Shown here: in pieces, positions 18,489-30,244 of the stretch
Position numbering within the stretch: the first letter of the stretch is position 1
Layout: every line of letters begins with the position of its first letter
NCBI RefSeq assembly: GCF_024505185.1
Contig: NZ_JANIBJ010000022.1
Span: 1-64,000 of the forward strand
DNA from: Methylomonas subterranea
Lineage (GTDB): Bacteria > Pseudomonadota > Gammaproteobacteria > Methylococcales > Methylomonadaceae
Direction: 5' to 3'
DNA length: 64,000 bases
The notes under the pieces: model-generated
What the model was told of the DNA's origin: nothing
The model's input: only the letters and a program-made list of their open reading frames with translations
The model's database searches: none
Position numbers and translations under genes: made by a program

Positions 18489-18514
18489 TTAGGGTGAGGG
18501 GAGTTTTAAATTTG

Positions 18515-18775
18515 TGTCGCTGCCGCGACAGTCATTTAGAAGTCGGTTCGCGGACCGACAGCCGCGATACTTTCTTTTGCGTCGCCAAAAGAAAGTATCC
18601 AAAGAAAAGGCGACCCGAATCCCGCGTTAATCCTGCGCTCCTCAGGTTTGAGCGGGGTTTCCCGAAGGGGCCTCCAAGCCCCCGCGGAAAACGCGATGCA
18701 TCCCTGCATCGCCCCTAGCGGGCTAGTCCGCCCAAACCCTCCGGTGCTCGGCGCGGCATAACGGGAACAAAACCA
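18515..18775 (-). repeat. Long dispersed repeat, copy A (left arm of an inverted pair)
   Basis: This stretch is the near-identical reverse complement of 22190-22450, including the segments around the GAAAGTATC blocks, the GATGCATCC block and the CCGGTGCTCGG block. A 43-bp end piece recurs at 21530-21571 and a degenerate copy lies at 23325-23535. Small open frames inside it are by-products of the repeat, not supported genes. With copy B it brackets the two-gene module and the intron remnant. Confidence 0.8.
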
Positions 18776-18906
18776 ATCCGTAATTTAAAGAAAACCAATA
18801 CGATATATACAGTTCCAAAATGTAAGAAGTGGCAATAACAAAAGCCAGTCAATCGAGAATAATATCATTCTCACGCTACTTAACAAGCTCTAACGGCTAA
18901 CCTGTA
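18776..18906. other. AT-rich gene-free stretch at the 3' end of the module
   Basis: Composition changes sharply from the GC-rich repeat to AT-rich DNA here. The only structure I see is a short inverted repeat GAGAAT/ATTCTC (18855-18860 with 18867-18872). On the minus strand it is followed about 10 nt later by a T-rich run, so it could be a weak terminator for the membrane-protein gene that ends at 18907. No gene is visible. Confidence 0.4.
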
Positions 18907-20370
18907 CTAATAATAACGAAAAAAGTAAGTGATAAAATTAATGACATTTTTTATTAATAGAGAAATCAATTCATTAGCTTTAGACAAGAAGCAATCTAAG
19001 CATATTAAATCCAGTTCATTAAAAAACTGCATTATCAAAATACAAATAACACCCAATACAACAAAATGGGTTCGTCTTTCGGTTTTCCTATAAGCGCTAA
19101 TAGAATCATTCAACGGCTTTTTTGCTAAAGATTGATAGTCATTGTCATCTAGAAACGCATAGAGCTTCGTACGCCACGATTCTCTTGATATTTCAATAAT
19201 CCGCAAGAAATTATTATTCGTTGTAATAGTAATCCAGTATGAAATTCCAATATACATAGCTATCAAAATAAAAATCCCCGCATAAGCAACTGATATTTCA
19301 GTAACTTTGCCATTTGGCATAGAATAACGCACAGCAACTGCACCAATGGCAATAGCGACATCACGCCAAACGGAACCTGATAAATCTTTTGATTGCTGTA
19401 AAAGTTTCTGAATTTCTTCCGCTAGCGTTTTTCTCAGGTCAGCTAGCGACTTTAAAGTCTCTTTGCTACTGGTTCTTAAATGCGCCTTATAAACGAGCCG
19501 AGCTGAATCAAGTGCACCTGGTAATCGTAAAGCCAAACCTTCACAAAACGAAACATCAGAGCTCCAAGAACGAGCTAATTCAGAGGTTAAAAAGGTATGC
19601 CTTACCTCAACATCCTCACCTTCTAAGTAGACCCAATTTGCGGAGTCTTGAAGTATTTGAAATGGAATTTCTTCTGCCAAAAAACAACCGAAATCGATTA
19701 TTTTTGGAGGCTGTCCTGATAAATTAAGCTTAAAACTGTCGCCTTCTGTATAAAGCTCATTTGGCAGCGATTTAGCCAACATCTCTGACGCCACTTCTTG
19801 CCATATAGCAAACGCAGGGCAATCATCCGGAGCTGATCCGTTTAAAAGCCATGGTTTAATAGACACTGGAGCCATCAGCTCAGACGATTGACATCTGACA
19901 TATTTTCTTGGCCCAACAAAAGGTTTTGATTTGAAGTCATCAAGGGCGTAACCCTGTGGAGCATTAACCCATGGCTCGACCATAAAGGCTTTTGACTCGA
20001 ATCCATTCTGAATAAAAGCCAGCTTGATAGCGTTAGCCGATATTAGCTTTTCTTCACTACGAAGTAATGCTTTCCATCCTTCTAATGAAAAAAGATGCGG
20101 AACGTTAATTGGGCATTCAAATGTCAGGTCTAACCGAAACTTATCTCCTTCATTTCCAGCTTCTGGATAAATAGAATCACCTGTCTCATCCTTGCATACT
20201 AAAGTTAACCAAGGGATACTCTCATCAACAACAGCTTGCCAAGCTGTTAGAGTCGCGCCGTTTAGCCTTCCACCTACCCAAAGATGGCCTGGATCTTCGG
20301 ATATTCTGAAATCAGCAGAACTTCGGCTAAGTTCAACAGCCTTAAGAACCCTTTCCAATATCGATGTCAT
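18907..20370 (-). CDS. Unknown protein with C-terminal membrane domain (module partner)
   Basis: I do not recognise this 487-residue protein. The first about 310 residues look soluble and mixed alpha/beta. About 310-335 is a Lys/Glu-rich helix (ETLKSLADLRKTLAEEIQKLL) likely to form a coiled coil. The C-terminal third holds hydrophobic segments at about 362-385 (AYAGIFILIAMYIGISYWI), about 436-458 and the last 20 residues, ending in FFRYY. Its ATG lies 29 nt inside the preceding NA37-like gene, so the two are co-translated. Codon use and base composition are AT-rich, unlike the flanking housekeeping genes, a sign of transfer. A soluble sensor plus membrane effector layout would suit a defence protein, but that is inference. 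Confidence 0.8.
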   Translation of the reverse strand: MTSILERVLKAVELSRSSADFRISEDPGHLWVGGRLNGATLTAWQAVVDESIPWLTLVCKDETGDSIYPEAGNEGDKFRLDLTFECPINVPHLFSLEGWKALLRSEEKLISANAIKLAFIQNGFESKAFMVEPWVNAPQGYALDDFKSKPFVGPRKYVRCQSSELMAPVSIKPWLLNGSAPDDCPAFAIWQEVASEMLAKSLPNELYTEGDSFKLNLSGQPPKIIDFGCFLAEEIPFQILQDSANWVYLEGEDVEVRHTFLTSELARSWSSDVSFCEGLALRLPGALDSARLVYKAHLRTSSKETLKSLADLRKTLAEEIQKLLQQSKDLSGSVWRDVAIAIGAVAVRYSMPNGKVTEISVAYAGIFILIAMYIGISYWITITTNNNFLRIIEISRESWRTKLYAFLDDNDYQSLAKKPLNDSISAYRKTERRTHFVVLGVICILIMQFFNELDLICLDCFLSKANELISLLIKNVINFITYFFRYY

Positions 20371-21388
20371 CGGTAGTTATTTCGGTAGTAACGATCACTA
20401 TTTTCGTCCTGACTCCATCTTCATGAGGTATTCGCTCAGGGGCATGCTCCTCATCGTAAATAACTTGTGTCCCTTCCACAGTTTCCAATCGCCGGCGAGG
20501 AGGCTTCTGAATACTTTCCGGAATGATCTCAAATGACTCTTCAGCGATACCCAAATCTTTTAAATTCTTAGATAACGTATTTCGAATAGGCGAGTTTTCA
20601 TCTACAGCTCCAAAAATAGCAGATATCAATGGTTCATAATTTTCAGCATCAAATTGCTGTCCATTTTGGCGTAAGACAGCATAAATATGGCTAACACCGC
20701 TCCGTTGAATTTCGATTGGCAATGAAGTTCTATGCTTTTTAAATGTATTTTTGAAAGCATCCACTAATTTACTACTCATCTTTTCAGGTGAGTTTACTCG
20801 GCGAACTTCCAAAAAACTCTGAAAATAATCTGAGATATGAGTTGGCTTACTTCTATCTTTTACGATTACTTTGCCTCCTTGATCATCTTGAAGACGTACT
20901 AGGGCAATTTTTTGCATAGCCTCCGCTTTACGCACAAAGGTTTCCCGAAACCTCTCCAATTGAGGCACTATCTCTGTTCCATTCTGATTTAAGATATAAC
21001 GAACAACATCCTCGTTATCATATTTTATGAGAGCATAAATTGTATTATCTTGCCCCGCCATCAATTCAAAAACAAAGAAAACACCTTCACTTGTATTACC
21101 ACCAGAATGAAGTCTTTGAAAATCGCGCGCTAATGCCTTAGTAGAGTTGGAAAAGTTATTTTCATTTTCTCCTATCGAACGCAGTGTGGCTTCCGTCGGA
21201 GAATGCAGCTTGAATTCAAAGAGATTCCCTTTTAATGCGGACTTGACGCGCTCTAAGAAGAAGTCCGTAAATTGTGGTGGCTCAATTTCTTCAAGCAAGA
21301 TCGGCTCTTCGAGAGATTTCCCAACAACATGAAAAATCATTCGACTAATAGAGAGCATCTGTTTTTCTGCATCAGTCAAAAAGCTCAT
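20342..21388 (-). CDS. NA37/YejK-like nucleoid-associated protein (module first gene)
   Basis: A 348-residue protein whose pattern resembles the 37-kDa nucleoid-associated family (YejK/NdpA, NA37). An N-terminal beta-rich half includes FKLHSPTEATLRSI, then a helix with NNFSNSTKALARDFQRL and strands GVFFVFEL, comparable to the YejK stretch ending GGFVLF. A central SDYFQSFLEVRR segment resembles the YejK ADFFMDFLG region. The assignment is from pattern, not alignment, and is moderate. The protein is predicted soluble and may bind DNA. It has an AGGA ribosome site 6 nt before the ATG, a sigma-70-like promoter upstream, and a 29-nt overlap with the membrane-protein gene. Confidence 0.7.
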   Translation of the reverse strand: MSFLTDAEKQMLSISRMIFHVVGKSLEEPILLEEIEPPQFTDFFLERVKSALKGNLFEFKLHSPTEATLRSIGENENNFSNSTKALARDFQRLHSGGNTSEGVFFVFELMAGQDNTIYALIKYDNEDVVRYILNQNGTEIVPQLERFRETFVRKAEAMQKIALVRLQDDQGGKVIVKDRSKPTHISDYFQSFLEVRRVNSPEKMSSKLVDAFKNTFKKHRTSLPIEIQRSGVSHIYAVLRQNGQQFDAENYEPLISAIFGAVDENSPIRNTLSKNLKDLGIAEESFEIIPESIQKPPRRRLETVEGTQVIYDEEHAPERIPHEDGVRTKIVIVTTEITTDDIDIGKGS

Positions 21389-21449: not shown

Positions 21450-21529
21450 TTAAAAAGGCATAGCAATTAGGGGGTGCACACGATACCTACTAAATATTAA
21501 ACGATTTCAAGTTTCGCTACGGGGTTTTT

Positions 21530-21571
21530 CCCGTTATGCCGCGCCGAGCACCGGAGGGTTTGGGCGGATTA
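21530..21571 (+). repeat. Truncated end of the long dispersed repeat
   Basis: These 42 bp match the first 42 bp of copy B (from about 22196) and the far end of copy A. The homology breaks at 21571, where a copy of the second repeat family begins. It marks the right-hand side of the AT-rich module, so the module is closely flanked by inverted copies of the same repeat end. Confidence 0.75.
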
Positions 21572-21659
21572 AGGCCGTAAGGTGCAATCGTAGGGCGTCA
21601 ATAGGCGCAGCCGTATTGCGCCGTATGTTAGCCTTCAAGCATTCGGCGCATTACGCTAT
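21571..21659 (+). repeat. Palindrome-ended repeat, copy 1 (interrupted by the intron)
   Basis: About 88 bp identical to 22043-22130 and, apart from a 10-bp indel, to 23185-23263. In the intact copies the unit ends in a palindrome with arms GGCGCATTA and TAATGCGCC. Here it stops in the palindrome centre and the group II intron 3' end begins. Confidence 0.8.
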
Positions 21660-21727
21660 ATCGGGTCAGAGGGAGCCGCAGCTCCCGTCTGCCCACAGAA
21701 CCGTGCGTACGGGTCCGTACACGGCTC
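21660..21727 (-). ncRNA. Group II intron domains V and VI (3' end of a truncated intron)
   Basis: Read on the minus strand, 21727-21697 folds as domain V: an 8-bp lower stem GAGCCGTG/CACGGTTC with the catalytic AGC triad, a 2-nt bulge CG on the 3' side, and an upper stem TACG/CGTA. Next, 21694-21663 folds as domain VI, with stem GGG-CAGA/TCTG-A-CCC and a single bulged A (complement of 21666), the branch-point nucleotide. The bulged A is 6-7 nt from the apparent 3' end at 21659-21660, the usual distance. Domains I to III are missing, so the element cannot splice on its own. Confidence 0.85.
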
Positions 21728-21728
21728 C

Positions 21729-22040
21729 TCACGCAAGACGAATCCACTGAGAAACATCAAACCAATGTGCCAATTGTCGGTCGGATCGTATTTCCTGGCC
21801 CATCAGGTTGATAAACCAACTATTCGGATAGGCTCTTGTCACCGCACGGGTGACTGAAAGCGCCCATCGTTTCTGGTTGGAAAAGACCGTTTGGGCGGCT
21901 TGCTTTCGCGGTACACCTCGTTTGACCAGATGTCGATACAGATACGGCTTTCGCTTCTGTTGGCTCACCAGTCTCGCCCGCAAACGCCTTCGAATGTGGG
22001 CTTCGATCTTCCTCAATTGGGACGGGTACTGAGTCAGACT
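21729..22040 (-). pseudogene. ltrA: C-terminal fragment of group II intron reverse transcriptase/maturase
   Basis: About 104 residues of the maturase X/thumb region remain, with RRRLRARLVSQQKRKPYLYRHL, a Trp-containing SNQKRWALS segment (position of the GIIM domain), and the ending WFDVSQWIRL. The stop codon is one base before domain V, as expected for a domain-IV-encoded ORF. The reverse transcriptase palm and fingers are absent; upstream the reading frame runs into a copy of the repeat at 22043, so the fragment was truncated by deletion or recombination there. It is not expected to be functional. Confidence 0.85.
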
Positions 22041-22042
22041 AT

Positions 22043-22165
22043 AAGGCCGTAAGGTGCAATCGTAGGGCGTCAATAGGCGCAGCCGTATTGCGCCGTATGT
22101 TAGCCTTCAAGCATTCGGCGCATTACGCTATCGCTAATGCGCCCTACAAACTTCCAAAATAGTAA
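22043..22165 (+). repeat. Palindrome-ended repeat, copy 2 (intact)
   Basis: Contains the unit also present at 21571 and 23185, followed by the complete palindrome (arms 22117-22125 and 22135-22143) and a tail through about 22165 that is shared with copy 3. It abuts the broken end of the maturase fragment. Confidence 0.8.
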
Positions 22166-22189
22166 ACGATTTCAAATTTCGTAATGGGT

Positions 22190-22450
22190 TTGCTCCCGTT
22201 ATGCCGCGCCGAGCACCGGAGGGTTTGGGCGGATTAGCCCGTTAGGGGCGATGCAGGGATGCATCGCGTTTTCCGCAGGGGCTGGGATGCCCCTTCGGAA
22301 AACCCCGCTCAAATCCTTCGGCGCGCAGGATCAACGCGGCATCCGGGCCGCCTTTTCTTTGGATACTTTCTTTTGGCGACACAAAAGAAAGTATCTCGGC
22401 TGTCGGGCCGAGACCCGACTTCCAAACATCCGTCGCGATAGCGACACCTT
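22190..22450 (+). repeat. Long dispersed repeat, copy B (right arm of the inverted pair)
   Basis: Near-identical in reverse orientation to 18515-18775. Contains a 12-bp direct/inverted pairing around ACTTTCTTTTG and CAAAAGAAAGT that forms a strong hairpin (about 22367-22393). No gene is supported inside it. It lies between the intron remnant and vapC. Confidence 0.8.
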
Positions 22451-22478: not shown

Positions 22479-22880
22479 CTACCCCAACCAATTCTCCATC
22501 AACAACCCCGGCACCCTCTCAAATTCCCGCAAATTATTGCTCACCAAAATCAAACCATGACTACGTGCATGCGCGGCAATGTGCAAATCGTTAACAATTA
22601 TCGTTTGACCAATGCGTTCCAACGCGGCGCGTATGCTGCCGTAATGCGTGGCGGCGTTATCTTTGTATGGCAACACCTGCAAACGGCTGCAAAAATCTTC
22701 TACCACTGCCAGATTACGCTCGGGAACTTGGCTTTTTTCCGCGCCATGAATCAACTCGGCCAACGTTATAGCGGAAATCGCCATGCGTCCATGATGCCGA
22801 TTGAAGGTTGCCAACACCTCAATTGGGCGCTGTTTGATTACGTATATAACGATGTTGGTATCGAGCAGATATTTCAACAT
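22479..22880 (-). CDS. vapC: VapC-type PIN-domain ribonuclease toxin
   Basis: A 133-residue PIN-domain protein. The acidic active-site residues are visible: LDTNI (D7), a conserved glutamate in TLAELIHG (about E42), and NDLHIAAHA (about D98), with a final acidic position near SNNLREFERV. VapC toxins cleave tRNA or rRNA; this group (E. coli-type VapC with VagC-like antitoxin) often cuts initiator tRNA, but the target here is unknown. It follows vapB by 6 nt and is neutralised by it. Confidence 0.93.
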   Translation of the reverse strand: MLKYLLDTNIVIYVIKQRPIEVLATFNRHHGRMAISAITLAELIHGAEKSQVPERNLAVVEDFCSRLQVLPYKDNAATHYGSIRAALERIGQTIIVNDLHIAAHARSHGLILVSNNLREFERVPGLLMENWLG

Positions 22881-22886
22881 ATGAAA

Positions 22887-23120
22887 CTACAAACTGTCGC
22901 GTTCGTTCTGCTGCTGACTGGCCCGCTCGCTTAAAAAATCGTCGCTGACAGTCGGACCGTTGACGAAAAAACTGTCCCAGGCAGAATCCGCTGGGGCAAT
23001 AATGCGTTCCGCGCCGACAGCCCTGACTTCCACTTTTTTGACGCTCTCCGGAAAACGCATGTCGGCGGGCAGGCGCACGGCCTGGCTACGATTGTTGGTA
23101 AAAACGGTACTTGCTGTCAT
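22887..23120 (-). CDS. vapB: VapB/VagC-type antitoxin
   Basis: A 77-residue antitoxin with an N-terminal AbrB/MazE-like swapped-hairpin DNA-binding domain (VFTNNRSQAVRLPADMRFP) and an acidic C-terminus that would wrap VapC. GGAGG lies 6 nt before the ATG. It is the first gene of the pair, preceded by a strong promoter and palindromic operator, as expected for autoregulation by the VapBC complex. Confidence 0.92.
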   Translation of the reverse strand: MTASTVFTNNRSQAVRLPADMRFPESVKKVEVRAVGAERIIAPADSAWDSFFVNGPTVSDDFLSERASQQQNERDSL

Positions 23121-23184: not shown

Positions 23185-23290
23185 AAGGCCGTAAGGTGCA
23201 ATCGTAGGGCGTCAATAGGCGCAGCCGTATGTTAGCCTTCAAGCATTCGGCGCATTACGCTAGCGCTAATGCGCCCTACAAACTTCCAAA
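23185..23290 (+). repeat. Palindrome-ended repeat, copy 3
   Basis: Same unit as 21571 and 22043, but 10 bp shorter: one of two CCGTAT-bounded segments has been lost, which looks like slippage between short direct repeats. The terminal palindrome and its tail are intact. It abuts the vapBC promoter. Confidence 0.8.
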
Positions 23291-23657: not shown

Positions 23658-25915
<2,258 letters not shown>

Positions 25916-25916
25916 G

Positions 25917-26306
25917 ATGCGACTCAAGGTAATGCTCCCCAACGAGGTATTGCTGGATGTCGCCGTGACTAAAATTATCGCCGAAGCCGAAAACGGCTGG
26001 TTCTGCCTTGAGCCGCGCCACGTCGATTTTGTCTCCGCCCTGGCACCCGGATTGCTGCGCTATGTGACGCCCGAAGGCGTTGAGATGTTTCTCGGCATCG
26101 ACGAAGGCATCTTGGTCAAATGCGGCGATTTGGTGCGGGTGTCCACCCCCGACGCGGTAACGGACAGCGACCCGGAGACACTGAAGCGACGCATGCAAGG
26201 CCGCCTCGATGCCGCCGATGAGCATAACCGCCATGCCCGCGGCGTGCTGGCCCGACTGGAAGCCGGCCTGGCGAAGCGTTTTACGGACATGCAAAAACGG
26301 CGCTGA
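25917..26306 (+). CDS. atpC: N-type ATPase epsilon subunit
   Basis: A 130-residue F1 epsilon subunit: an N-terminal beta-sandwich (MRLKVMLPNEVLLDVAVTKI, with the family G-x-FC-LEPRHVDFVSAL segment) and a C-terminal helical hairpin (about 85-130). It forms the central stalk with gamma and regulates ATP hydrolysis. The start follows the atpD stop by one base. Confidence 0.92.
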   Translation: MRLKVMLPNEVLLDVAVTKIIAEAENGWFCLEPRHVDFVSALAPGLLRYVTPEGVEMFLGIDEGILVKCGDLVRVSTPDAVTDSDPETLKRRMQGRLDAADEHNRHARGVLARLEAGLAKRFTDMQKRR

Positions 26307-26307
26307 C

Positions 26308-26619
26308 ATGGCTAAGCCAGGCAAATTCCGCAAGCTACCACTTGCCGACCGCATCGGCGGCAAGGCAGACCGCCACCGACGGGCGCGCATAAGGCCCAAG
26401 CGCAGCCTGTGGTTCGGCCTGGGCATGTTCGGCTTGGTGGGGTGGGCGGTTATCGTGCCAACCCTGCTGGGTATCGCCGCCGGCATCTGGCTGGACCGTC
26501 TGTGGCCCGGCCGGGTATCGTGGACCTTGACGCTGCTGTTCGGCGGTGTGATATTGGGCTGCAGGAATGCCTGGTATTGGCTGGAACGTGAACGACAGGA
26601 CAAGCATCATGACCAATAA
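26308..26619 (+). CDS. atpQ: N-ATPase AtpQ (AtpI/AtpZ-like membrane protein)
   Basis: A 103-residue protein with a basic N-terminus and two membrane helices (about 33-56 and 63-82) of the AtpI/AtpZ type, with GIAAGIWLD between them. In N-ATPase operons this position is atpQ, thought to help c-ring assembly or Mg2+/ion handling. It follows atpC by one base and overlaps atpR by 11 nt. The call rests on position and the helix pattern. Confidence 0.85.
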   Translation: MAKPGKFRKLPLADRIGGKADRHRRARIRPKRSLWFGLGMFGLVGWAVIVPTLLGIAAGIWLDRLWPGRVSWTLTLLFGGVILGCRNAWYWLERERQDKHHDQ

Positions 26620-26902
26620 TCTCGCCATCGCCGCCGACTGGCTGATGGCCGCAAGCGTGGGCGTATTACTGGGCTGCGTGTATTTCGGCGGTCTGTGGCT
26701 GACCATTCGCCGGCTAGCGCATGCCCGGCAACCCGGTTTGCACATGCTGGCCAGCCTGCTGCTGCGCCTGGCCTTGCTGGCCTGGGGGCTTTACCTGCTG
26801 ACCGACGGCCATTGGCAACGCTTTGCGGCCGCGCTGGCCGGTTTATTGCTCGCCCGCTGGTGGTGGATACGCCGCATTGCTCCCACCGGAGCCGAACGAT
26901 GA
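26609..26902 (+). CDS. atpR: N-ATPase AtpR membrane protein
   Basis: A 97-residue protein with three membrane helices. The second helix region carries arginines (LLLRLALLAWG), and helix-adjacent Arg residues facing the membrane are a noted trait of AtpR, proposed to interact with the carboxylates of the c subunit. The start ATG overlaps atpQ by 11 nt and the stop overlaps atpB in ATGA. AtpR occurs only in N-type operons, so it is diagnostic. Confidence 0.88.
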   Translation: MTNNLAIAADWLMAASVGVLLGCVYFGGLWLTIRRLAHARQPGLHMLASLLLRLALLAWGLYLLTDGHWQRFAAALAGLLLARWWWIRRIAPTGAER

Positions 26903-27597
26903 AGCTGAGCAGCGACGGCACCATCCTGGCCTGGTTCGGCCCGTGGCCGATCAATGCCACCCTAGCCTACACCTGGCTGGTCATGGCCGTTTTGGTGCTG
27001 ACATCCTTTCTGGTCACCCGGCGTTTGCAAGACGAGCCGAACATGAGCCGCTGGCAAAATCTGCTGGAAATACTGGTCGACGGCCTACGCGAGCAGATTC
27101 GCCAAACCAGTTGCCAGGATCCCGGCCCCTATCTGCCTTTCGTCGGCACGCTGTTTCTGTTCATCGCCGTGTCCAATCTATTGGCCATCGTACCCGGTTA
27201 CGCGCCGCCGACCGCCTCCTTGTCCACCACCGTGGCGTTGGCCCTGGCGGTTTTCGCCGCCGTGCCGATTTACGGCATCGCCCAGCGCGGCGTACGCTCC
27301 TATCTGGCCGACTATCTGAAGCCCTCGTTTTTTTTGCTGCCGCTCAACATCCTGAGCGAAGTTTCCCGCACCCTGGCCTTGGCCGTGCGCCTATACGGCA
27401 ACATGATGAGCGGCACTATCATCGGCGGCATCCTGCTGGGCATCGTGCCGCTATTTTTCCCCGTGGTGTTGCAGTTCCTCGGGCTGATCACCGGACTGGT
27501 GCAGGCCTACATCTTTGCCGTGCTGGCGATGGTATTTATTGCCTCGGCGCAAGCCGCCCGGGATGAACGCAAGCCTACTCAAACCTTTGGAGATTGA
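26899..27597 (+). CDS. atpB: N-type ATPase subunit a
   Basis: A 232-residue F0 subunit a with about five or six membrane helices. The essential stator arginine is R164 in LALAVRLYGNMMSG. The length is short compared with housekeeping AtpB (about 270). Together with the c ring it forms the ion half-channels. It overlaps atpR by four bases and ends one base before the c-subunit start. Confidence 0.95.
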   Translation: MKLSSDGTILAWFGPWPINATLAYTWLVMAVLVLTSFLVTRRLQDEPNMSRWQNLLEILVDGLREQIRQTSCQDPGPYLPFVGTLFLFIAVSNLLAIVPGYAPPTASLSTTVALALAVFAAVPIYGIAQRGVRSYLADYLKPSFFLLPLNILSEVSRTLALAVRLYGNMMSGTIIGGILLGIVPLFFPVVLQFLGLITGLVQAYIFAVLAMVFIASAQAARDERKPTQTFGD

Positions 27598-27598
27598 T

Positions 27599-27886
27599 AT
27601 GTCCGAACTCGGTCCCGACCTCATCATAGGCGCCGTATCCATTTTCACCGCCGGCATCACCATGGCCATCGGCAGCATTGCGCCGGCCCTGGGCGAAGGC
27701 AAGGCGGTTGCGGAAGCCTTGAACGCCATCGCCCAACAACCGGATGAAGCCCCGACCCTGACCCGCACGCTGTTCGTCGGCATGGCGATGGTCGAATCGA
27801 CCGCCATTTATTGTCTGGTGGTCAGCATGATTTTGATTTTCGCCAATCCGTTCTGGGAGTATTTCATCGGCAAGGCCGGAGGCTGA
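27599..27886 (+). CDS. atpE: N-type ATPase c subunit with two carboxylates
   Basis: A 95-residue two-helix proteolipid. Helix 1 carries GEG with E33 at the position that is Gln in the Na+ c subunit of Ilyobacter (Q32). Helix 2 has VESTAIY with E66, S67, T68 and Y71, matching the known Na+ ligand set. Paired carboxylates occur in the Na+ rotor of Fusobacterium and in some N-type rotors, one of which is reported as H+-selective, so the coupling ion here is open. A GGAG ribosome site lies 6 nt before the ATG at 27599. Confidence 0.95.
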   Translation: MSELGPDLIIGAVSIFTAGITMAIGSIAPALGEGKAVAEALNAIAQQPDEAPTLTRTLFVGMAMVESTAIYCLVVSMILIFANPFWEYFIGKAGG

Positions 27887-27889
27887 GCC

Positions 27890-28705
27890 GTGCGGATCGA
27901 CTGGCTGACGGTCGGCGCCCAATGGATCAATTTTCTGCTCCTGATGTGGCTGCTGCGGCGTTATTTGTATCAACCCATCCTGCGGGCCATGGATAAGCGC
28001 CAGCAGACCATTGCGGCCCGCTCGGCGGCGGCGGCCGAAAAATCCGCGCGGGCCGAACAGCTGGCTCGCGACTATCTCGACAAACTAGCCGAGCTGGATG
28101 CGCGACGGGCAGAACTGCTGCTTGCGGCCAGGGCAGCCGCCGATGCCGAGCGGACCAAGCTGATGGAACAGGCCCGGGCCGATGCCAAGGCCGAGTCGGA
28201 CCAATGGCGGCGCGATCTCGCGCGGGAAAAAACCGACTTCCAGCGCCAAATCAACCGCCAACTTGGCGGCCTGATAACCGCCACCGCCCGTAAAGCCGTG
28301 CAAGAGTTGTGCAGCAAGCCTTTGGAGCAAGCCCTGTGCGACCGGTTTCTGGAACGCTTGCAACAGTTGCCGGCCGAGGAAAAGCGCCTGTTTACCGAAC
28401 CGCACCCTGGAGAACTGCTGCTGGCCAGCAGTTTTGAACTCGATGCCGCGCAGCGGAACCGCTTCGAGTCCGCGCTGCGCGACATCCTGGCCAACGATGT
28501 ATCGCTGCGTTTCGAAACGCTGCGGAATAGCAGTTTTGGCGTAGTGTTGAGCAGCGCCGACCACACGCTGGAATGGCAACTGGAACGCTATTTCGCCGAA
28601 CTGCAAGCCGAACTGGACGCCACGCTGACTCAAACCGAACGAAAGCCGCCGGCAGATGCCGAACCCGGCCTGAACCTTGAATTTCCTCAAGCGTTACCGG
28701 AATGA
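27890..28705 (+). CDS. atpF: N-type ATPase b subunit fused to a delta-like domain
   Basis: A 271-residue protein starting at GTG 27890. One N-terminal membrane helix (about 10-28) is followed by a long Ala/Glu/Arg coiled coil (about 35-150) of subunit b. The C-terminal about 90 residues (ELLLASSFELDAAQRNRFES onward) resemble the C-terminal domain of F1 delta/OSCP. No separate delta gene exists in the operon, so this fusion would attach the stalk to F1. Such b-delta fusions are typical of N-ATPases. Confidence 0.9.
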   Translation: MRIDWLTVGAQWINFLLLMWLLRRYLYQPILRAMDKRQQTIAARSAAAAEKSARAEQLARDYLDKLAELDARRAELLLAARAAADAERTKLMEQARADAKAESDQWRRDLAREKTDFQRQINRQLGGLITATARKAVQELCSKPLEQALCDRFLERLQQLPAEEKRLFTEPHPGELLLASSFELDAAQRNRFESALRDILANDVSLRFETLRNSSFGVVLSSADHTLEWQLERYFAELQAELDATLTQTERKPPADAEPGLNLEFPQALPE

Positions 28706-28720
28706 AGGCCAGGAAAGCAC

Positions 28721-30244
28721 ATGTTGAATGAAGCCATGGCCAGCACCACCGCCGCGCTGACACAACTGTTGGCAAAGCATCGGGCCGAATTATCGGCACG
28801 GGAAACCGGCAGCGTCCTCCAGATAAGCCACGGCGTGGCGCTAGTGGACGGTTTGCCCGGCGTACAGGCCATGGAATTGGTCGAATTCGAGGCCGGCCTG
28901 TTCGGTTTGGCCTTCGACCTGGATCCCGAACAAATCGGCGTCGTGTTATTGGACGCCGGCGCGGCTATCGTCGCCGGCAGCCGAGTGCGGCGTAGCGGCC
29001 GGGTAGCTGACGTGCCGGTGGGCACGGCCTTGCTGGGCCGGGTCGTCAACGCCCTGGGCCAGCCGCTGGACGAACAAGGACCGTTGACCACATGCGAACG
29101 CAGCCCCATCGAACGGGAGGCCCCCGCGATACTGGAGCGTGCGCCCGTCACCGAACCCTTGCAAACCGGCATCAAAGTCATAGACGCCGCCATCCCCATC
29201 GGCCGCGGCCAACGCCAACTCATCGTCGGCGACCGCCAGACCGGCAAGACCGCCATTGCCTTGGCCACCCTGGTCAATCAGCGCCATAGCGATGTGGTCT
29301 GCGTCTATTGCGCTATCGGCCAGCGCGGCGATGCGGTGGCGCGCGCCATCGAAACCTTGCGTACCGAACAGATAATCCGGCAAACCGTTGTCGTGGTGGC
29401 GGCCGCCGAAGACCCGCCCGGCCTGCAGTTCATCACACCCTACGCCGCCACCAGTATCGCCGAATATTTCATGCGGCTGGGCCGCGACGTGGTGATCGTC
29501 TACGACGACCTGACCCATCACGCCCTGGCCTACCGGGAACTTTCCCTGCTGCTACGGCGTCCGCCCGGCCGCGAGGCCTACCCCGGCGATATTTTCCATA
29601 TTCACGCCCGCTTGCTGGAACGCGCCACCCGCCTGGCGGCCGGCGGTTCGCTGACGGCCATGCCCATCATGGAAATCGAAGCCGAAAATCTGGCCGCCTA
29701 CATCGCCACCAATCTGATTTCCATTACCGACGGCCAGATTTACTTGTCGCCGGAGCTGTTTCACAAAGGCTTGTTGCCGGCCGTGGATGTCGGCAAGTCC
29801 GTGTCCCGGGTCGGCGGCAAGGCGCAATTGCCGGCTTACCGGCTGGTGGCCGGCGTCTTGAAACTGTATTACGCCCAATTCGAGGAATTGGAAATGTTCG
29901 CCCGCTTCGGCACCCGGCTGGATAAAAGTACCCGGCAAATTCTGGATCGCGGCCAGCGGGTACGCGAAATCCTTAAGCAACCGGAGCGGGCAGCCTTGAG
30001 CCCTTTCGAGCAAATCCTGGTGCTGCTGGCCGTAACCGAAGGCTTGTTCGATGCCGTCCCCTTGCACGACGTCGCCCAGGCCGAATTGATGCTGAGAGCT
30101 GTCGCCACCCGCCAGTTGGCCGCTCTCGGACAGCGCGTTCAGCGTGGCGAAACCTTGACCGGCGACGATCGCGCGGCACTGCTTGGCGCGGCACAACAAG
30201 CGCTGGCGACGAGAGAGGCGGATGGAAACCGAACAAACCCTTAG
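28721..30244 (+). CDS. atpA: N-type ATPase alpha subunit
   Basis: A 507-residue F1 alpha subunit with Walker A GDRQTGKT (170-177) and the arginine-finger region [10 protein letters not shown]. Alpha alternates with beta in the F1 hexamer and binds nucleotide at non-catalytic sites. AGGA lies 6 nt before the ATG. Its 3' end overlaps atpG by 23 nt. Confidence 0.96.

Follow-up and report, generated by a model that had tools for sequence, protein, structure and literature searches.

We analysed a 64,000-nt stretch of a Methylomonas subterranea contig, referred to here as the window, and found on its minus strand, at positions 21660-22041, the 3'-terminal ~382 nt of a group II intron, which we class as group IIC below. 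The intron 3' end lies at 21660. The Rfam model RF00029 matches 21660-21729 (-) over all 77 of its positions with a score of 48.5 bits (cut-off 40, E 1.8e-6), far above background, and this is the sole RNA match at gathering level in the 64-kb window. Domain V, matched by RF00029 and placed by eye at 21698-21727 (-), is a 30-nt hairpin (GAGCCGTG/CACGGTTC) with an 8-bp lower helix that carries the AGC triad, a 2-nt CG bulge, a 4-bp terminal helix, and a GACC loop. Domain VI occupies 21663-21694 (-) and, as read by eye, bulges a branch-point A at 21666, 7 nt before the intron 3' end, which reads ...CCCGAT. Group II introns end in AY as a rule. These domains had been predicted from the sequence, together with a maturase C-terminus, and the observation is confirmed on each of the three counts.

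The domain assignments were compared with those of relatives in a set of 15 sequences that includes the window. The hand-drawn structure of domains V and VI has pairing in 97.6% of 374 cells, and slid controls of the same structure have pairing in 24-48% of cells. Four pairs have changed on both sides, all of them in domain VI. Domain V is near-invariant, with 10 of its 12 pairs never varying, so covariation backs domain VI and it is the RF00029 model score that backs domain V. The usual domain V loop is a GNRA tetraloop; in the window and the 14 relatives, a short 4-bp upper helix is closed by GACC or GATC (by a 3-nt loop in one locus, L016).

Upstream of domain V, the C-terminal ~103 codons of the intron-encoded maturase lie at 21732-22041 (-), identified by tblastn and blastn to relatives and from the list of open reading frames. 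The listed frame runs on to 22073, with its start inside the neighbouring repeat, and the homology ends near 22041. The tail is 94% identical in amino acids to an intron protein of Methylobacter marinus over residues 11-113. Against the Pfam model GIIM it scores 13.9 bits, below the cut-off of 23, so the identification as a maturase rests on these relatives. At the DNA level, alignment of the relic with the full-length introns at loci L059, L060, L061, and L079 shows 88.5-89% identity across 377-384 nt of their 3' ends; this is the range for the introns of genomes G210, G178, and G258, and the other full-length introns compared are 72-81% identical to the relic. The GUGYG 5' end and domains I-IV are absent, so the element is a relic rather than an intron, and the window copy, which has no domains I-IV, no reverse transcriptase core, and no 5' splice site, is dead. 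The absence of everything upstream, which the original prediction had also described, extends beyond the locus: the first 1660 nt of a relative intron have no match at E<=0.01 in the draft genome (4.41 Mb, 104 contigs).

The 3' exon of the relic, at 21570-21659 (-), consists of 90 nt of a repeat element and starts with the 3' half of a hairpin, ATAGCGTAATGCGCC. This half-palindrome is exact: 21570-21659 is identical to 22042-22131 at 90 of 90 positions. An intact 105-bp copy of the element (AAGGCCGTAAGG...CTAC) occupies 22043-22147 (+) and abuts the broken 5' end of the relic; its ends match those of copies in other genomes of the genus, where most matches have common start and end points. Within it, at 22117-22143, lies the intact palindrome GGCGCATTACGCTATCGCTAATGCGCC, which we take as the model of the empty site, and its 9-bp stem spans the presumed junction, a stem reached by 0.8% of 3000 random positions. 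With its GTAG foot the palindrome extends over 22117-22147 (full form GTAGGGCGCATTAGCGATAGCGTAATGCGCC). A third copy of 95 bp, with an internal deletion, lies at 23185-23279 (+); its palindrome arms are intact at 23249-23275, one loop base is changed in the hairpin at 23249-23279, and the junction there reads GCG|C instead of GCG|A. The two whole hairpins are thus 0.46 and 1.6 kb from the 3' end of the relic, and the claim that the intron ends in the middle of a palindrome that two nearby copies retain with both arms is borne out.

The target repeat is a multicopy, GTAG-footed imperfect palindrome (GTAGGGCGCATTAGCG...GCGTAATGCGCC), and the ~105-bp element that contains it, with its GTAG feet and inward hairpins, is REP/BIME-like. 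Matches to the element at E<=1e-8 occur in 30 of 37 genomes from the genus and number as many as 18 in a single genome; this genome has three near-complete copies, all of which lie inside the window. The nine copies examined in other genomes hold no intron. A second repeat, X, is present at 21485-21571 (+) and 22150-22236 (+), the two copies being 87% identical; In several of the element copies compared, X comes directly after the element, and in L136 it separates two tandem elements with a sequence that matches both window copies of X. The genome has 11 matches to the Pfam model Y1_Tnp, several of them no more than a few hundred bases from a GTAG motif, and the contig of the window has none.

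The surroundings are also rich in repeats. Inverted copies at 18514-18789 and 22171-22447, 85-92% complementary, flank a 3.4-kb segment that could be repeat-bounded cargo and that contains two minus-strand genes, one (20342-21388) for an NA37-like nucleoid-associated protein and one (18907-20370) with no Pfam match. Between two of the element copies, 22479-23120 (-) encodes a PIN-domain protein (Pfam E 5.2e-21), and the frame that precedes it resembles, in our estimation, a VapB-type antitoxin, making a VapBC pair probable. Just downstream of the repeats, at 24392-30244 (+), is a row of reading frames that by eye are F-type ATPase-like and that we presume to be of the N-ATPase type.

A search for domains V and VI across the genome gave two matches, the window relic and a second relic on another contig (C18:44022-44091, plus a maturase C-terminus), and the two are equal at 224 of 225 bases over their common part. 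Because their 3' flanks differ, they are either separate insertions or a single insertion plus a rearranged duplicate of it. The broken end of the second relic lies at or a few nt from a copy of a REP-type element (GCGTAAGG...), with a TTTT overlap read by eye, so that both relics of this genome have their broken 5' end at or a few nt from the end of such an element. The second relic lies within ~1 kb of a Y1_Tnp gene (C18:45003-45356), surrounded by four copies of a GTAAGG-type repeat (locus L005, G000:C18:41000-48000).

Full-length relatives allow the parent to be characterized. At E<=1e-60 the full-length protein has matches in 47 of 301 genomes of the order, mostly distant (35-51% identity). 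Full-length close relatives, with at least 76% identity, occur in ten of the genomes, none of which is this one. These introns are 2024-2051 nt long (2.02-2.05 kb), start with GTGYGAC, and end with CCCGAT. The two motifs doubled as search terms in one locus search; independent of that search, the 3' end CCCGAT is present in 12 of 13 loci (the exception is L017). A full-length intron with the same 3' end, suggested as a check to be made in the same genome, is therefore present in other genomes and absent from this one. The reverse transcriptase of the relatives (P0001) is 437 aa long and passes TIGR04416, and its Pfam matches are RVT_1 and GIIM only, with no endonuclease model. Compared with the PDB, it is closest to GsI-IIC (342 bits), followed by 7uim (298 bits); the top four matches score 342-253 bits and LtrA scores 139 bits. 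We take these four to be group IIC proteins, GsI-IIC by its name. Given an endonuclease-free 437-aa reverse transcriptase whose best PDB match is GsI-IIC, we class the parent as a putative group IIC (class C) intron, the class of the reverse transcriptase being assigned by best matches rather than by a tree. A class-wide search of 369 genomes at E<=1e-130 gave no match; close relatives score better than this threshold, so the sample contained none of them and the result shows little. In a plasmid search, the one record with at least 80% of the intron is the plasmid of L019/L071.

To define where this family inserts, we used 19 sites at which both exons are kept, 13 of them in the relic's own clade. 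Left out were L067 (the same as L007 and L033), where the contig starts 4 nt upstream; L078, which has the 5' exon of L071 and lacks its 3' end; L064, L072, L077, and L068 (the same as L011 and L034), where one end was not found; the partial copies L080, L084, L086, and L087; all loci with a 3' end only; and L131 and L133, copies found later in genome G014. The loci L088-L091 belong to an intron family ~42% identical and were outside the analysis. Two of the counted sites, L061 and L083, have common flanks and may represent one duplicated event. In the close clade, the 5' exon ends in GYG at 13 of 13 sites and position +1 of the 3' exon is a purine at 12 of 13. The resulting GYG|R pattern occurs at 2.0% of window positions, and the GCG|A of the reconstructed empty site in the window fits it. 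Group IIC introns typically have an EBS1-IBS1 pairing of 3-4 bp and a one-base IBS3, and lack IBS2. A candidate EBS1 loop in domain I, selected by eye for its fit to IBS1, reads CCCGCG in the relic's clade, CCTTGGA in L009 (exon CCAA), and CCGTGAG in G014 (exon CGC, with one U-G wobble), and it fits L071 poorly (exon AAAAC). In three of the four lineages, the comparison suggests, the candidate EBS1 changes together with IBS1; L071 is the misfit. One palindromic repeat holds an intron at the same base in L070 and L061, which belong to two genera.

The sites are enriched in hairpins. Plain folding energy was too blunt a measure, not separating the sites from background (p 0.07 for fused exons, 0.085 for the 5' exon), and was dropped in favour of a junction-centred stem search, in which a stem of score at least 7 had to enclose the junction or end at most 9 nt upstream of it. 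Such a stem is present at 14 of 19 sites and at 15% of 3000 random window positions (rank test p 2e-7). Repeating the null gave 557 of 4000 positions in the whole window and 712 of 4000 (18%) outside open reading frames of at least 100 codons, and relative to positions outside these long frames the rank test p is 6e-7. Stems that strictly span the junction are mildly enriched (p 0.019) and stems that end at it, with the junction at their foot, more strongly (p 0.0008). At the remaining five sites (L062, L066, L069, L071, and L081), the junction stem scores below 7. The original prediction would have been undermined by relatives at unrelated, non-palindromic sites; most sites are palindromic and these five are of the other kind.

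At 8 of the 19 sites the junction lies within a hairpin with GTAG or GTAAG feet, under a test whose limits were rewritten after the sites had been seen, an earlier version having scored 1 of 19 despite GTAG hairpins that were plain by eye. The same test is passed by 96 of 20000 positions in the whole window (0.5%) and by 274 of 20000 outside open reading frames of at least 100 codons (1.4%). Compared with the latter null, 8 of 19 gives p 8e-11, which, like the other p-values, is rough, given partly dependent sites, nulls drawn from a single genome, and the revision of the GTAG test. Merging like sites leaves 7 of 16 GTAG-footed. The L060 match in this test is an attC-like stem, and the stem returned for L079 is not its REP stem; with L060 removed, the close clade has GTAG hairpins at 2 of 12 sites (p 0.0016). 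By genome, GTAG or GTAAG hairpins hold 2 of the 5 counted sites in G210 (L079 and L085) and 4 of the 4 in G014.

The position within the hairpin varies. The junction is in the loop or at its edge in L060, L061, L083, L070, L065, and L079 (REP stem read by eye), as it would be in the window, and L061 and L070 also have a weaker stem that ends at the junction. It is at the 3' foot of the hairpin in L059, L063, L009, and all four counted G014 copies, and inside the left arm of a REP in L085. The G014 sites are at GTAG or GTAAG hairpins with Y1_Tnp or RAYT-like genes near: Pfam Y1_Tnp matches adjoin L073, L074 (below cut-off), and L131 (with a stop), and RAYT-like fragments, seen by eye only, lie beside L075 and L076 (L130). 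The proposal that the ancestor of the relic inserted at the tip of a hairpin is supported, GCG|A fitting the rule of the clade, with the qualification that the family uses other positions besides the tip.

Short sequence matches could in principle explain this distribution, with sites chosen by IBS1 and IBS3 only and hairpins struck because REP-rich intergenic DNA tolerates insertions. We regard this explanation as unlikely. It gains from the brevity of IBS1 (3 nt), from the five sites without a good stem, from the rise of the GTAG-hairpin null from 0.5% to 1.4% outside long frames, which lowers the enrichment, and from the origin of both nulls in one genome that is not the relatives' own. However, the enrichment persists under the stricter null, and the REP pattern is sparse in the relatives' genomes, with 134 instances in the 4.8 Mb of G210 and 9 in the 5.1 Mb of G014, yet six counted sites in those genomes, given above, lie in GTAG or GTAAG hairpins, the four in G014 sharing one position, the 3' foot. 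REP hairpins look like an under-described target of group IIC introns.

For the window itself, we consider it probable that the group IIC 3' end descends from an ancestor that reverse-spliced into the loop of a REP/BIME-like hairpin, and that the 5' part was lost later or from the outset. A full-length intron would have entered the minus strand at GCG|A, in the loop of the hairpin that ends the ~105-bp element (reconstructed site GCGCATTAGCG|ATAGCG). Recognition would combine 3 bp of pairing between EBS1 and IBS1 (CGC in the intron, GYG in the exon) with an IBS3 purine and the DNA hairpin, and the target was presumably single-stranded DNA. The intron would have lost its first ~1.66 kb, and the hairpin its other arm, either later or in the course of a 5'-truncated insertion, which would leave the intact element copy abutting the broken end. 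Because the 5' half of the original site is gone, the tip position is read from the neighbouring copy. This leaves some room for an intron that was never in a hairpin loop and a later recombination between repeats that placed the fragment beside half an element, the tip position being accidental: a single junction of the original insertion survives, and the region is a mosaic of the inverted repeats and direct X copies described above. Such an accident is improbable, as the repeat stops exactly at the intron 3' end, which is the CCCGAT conserved in the relatives, and the reconstructed empty site obeys a rule satisfied at few window positions.

How the 5' part was lost is less clear-cut. Read along the plus strand, X1 is followed by a 90-nt block B, the relic, an identical copy of B, a hairpin arm, and X2. 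Two routes could give this arrangement: deletion of the intron's 5' part, together with one arm and one X, from an array of two elements, or duplication of B by a truncated insertion. In the second scheme, target-primed reverse transcription would have aborted and a 90-bp stretch of 3' exon would have been duplicated, as in LINE-like insertion, with no later deletion. The identity of the 90-bp copies, which end exactly at the ends of the relic and are flanked by X copies only 87% alike, speaks for this scheme, as does its minimal ancestor, X-element-X, which is the order seen in L136. A 3-nt TTA overlap at the 5' junction, read from alignments, is in line with it and fits the deletion route as well. 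The left end of the duplication is, however, the usual left end of the element (AAGGCC), which is unexpected for a random break, and a deletion that reaches a second element is just as compatible with the tandem elements, which are spaced 193-196 bp apart. We therefore hold primary truncation to be possible, though on the unlikely side. The coincidence of the 5' junction with the element's usual left end is explained by neither route alone. The repeat-relic-repeat structure may also be a misassembly of the draft. With these qualifications, insertion into the hairpin, as first proposed, remains the supported interpretation.

Insertion of group IIC introns at DNA hairpins is already established (PMC10190682, PMC4424553, and PMC7923331), and these introns read both the shape and the sequence of target DNA, as described in the cryo-EM study of the E.r. 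IIC ribonucleoprotein on a DNA stem-loop target (PMC10190682). The parent resembles E.r. IIC in its reverse transcriptase class, the lack of an endonuclease, a DNA hairpin target, and, as predicted from the sites and the candidate EBS1, a short EBS1-IBS1 pairing and a one-base IBS3. For E.r. IIC a short spacer separates the site from a stem-loop on its 5' side (PMC10190682), whereas the window site would be in the loop or at its edge, and the L060, L065, L079, L061, and L070 sites can be read likewise. PMC7923331 and PMC4424553 describe IIC-attC introns, whose insertions, like those of this family, lie in an imperfect palindrome belonging to a mobile element or just after it. Those introns mostly use TTGT/T on the bottom strand of attC, in contrast to GYG|R in the relic's clade, where IBS1 is GYG at 13 of 13 sites. 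The same papers, between them, report replication as the route of endonuclease-free introns and give the known specificities of group II introns in bacteria as homing sites, terminators, and attC. IS elements that target REPs are known, and for a group II intron of Pseudomonas putida a table in the excerpt of PMC1525189 places 2 of 9 copies at REPs. That entry, a mobile element in REP palindromes as here, is a prior hint for group II introns and, within the excerpt, comes without intron class, site rule, or position in the hairpin. Among the listed matches of a search of the full-text literature, judged by title and start of abstract and with subscription papers mostly outside its coverage, none describes REP targeting by group IIC introns. 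The relic is an ordinary dead member of its family, and what is new is the REP habit of its lineage.

The GTAG-footed hairpins and the 11 Y1_Tnp matches liken the genome to REP/BIME systems with RAYT (Y1_Tnp) genes, unlike which the window's contig has no Y1_Tnp match. We tentatively suggest, with rather less than even confidence, that REP/BIME hairpins, chiefly those near RAYT genes, form a third natural class of group IIC targets beside terminators and attC, that sister lineages read different points of them (the loop, with EBS1 CGC, or the 3' foot, with EBS1 GUG), and that the introns are in turn broken by hairpin elements. Such a lineage, inserting at REP hairpins, offers a natural experiment on shape and sequence in target choice, in which the 3-nt pairing seems to differ with hairpin position between sister clades, and RAYT/REP elements and group IIC introns, both thought to use single-stranded DNA, would meet at one site.

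Some of the palindromes also recall attC sites. In L059, L060, and L065, which are attC-like by eye only, the palindromes have attC-like end boxes (e.g. GCCTAAC, GTTAGGC, and GTTGGAC) and the insertion is not at TTGT/T. Two later-found G014 copies on contig C1 lie between paired REPs: L131 comprises a full-length intron frame and a RAYT-like frame, and L133 a group IIC intron frame broken by other insertions.
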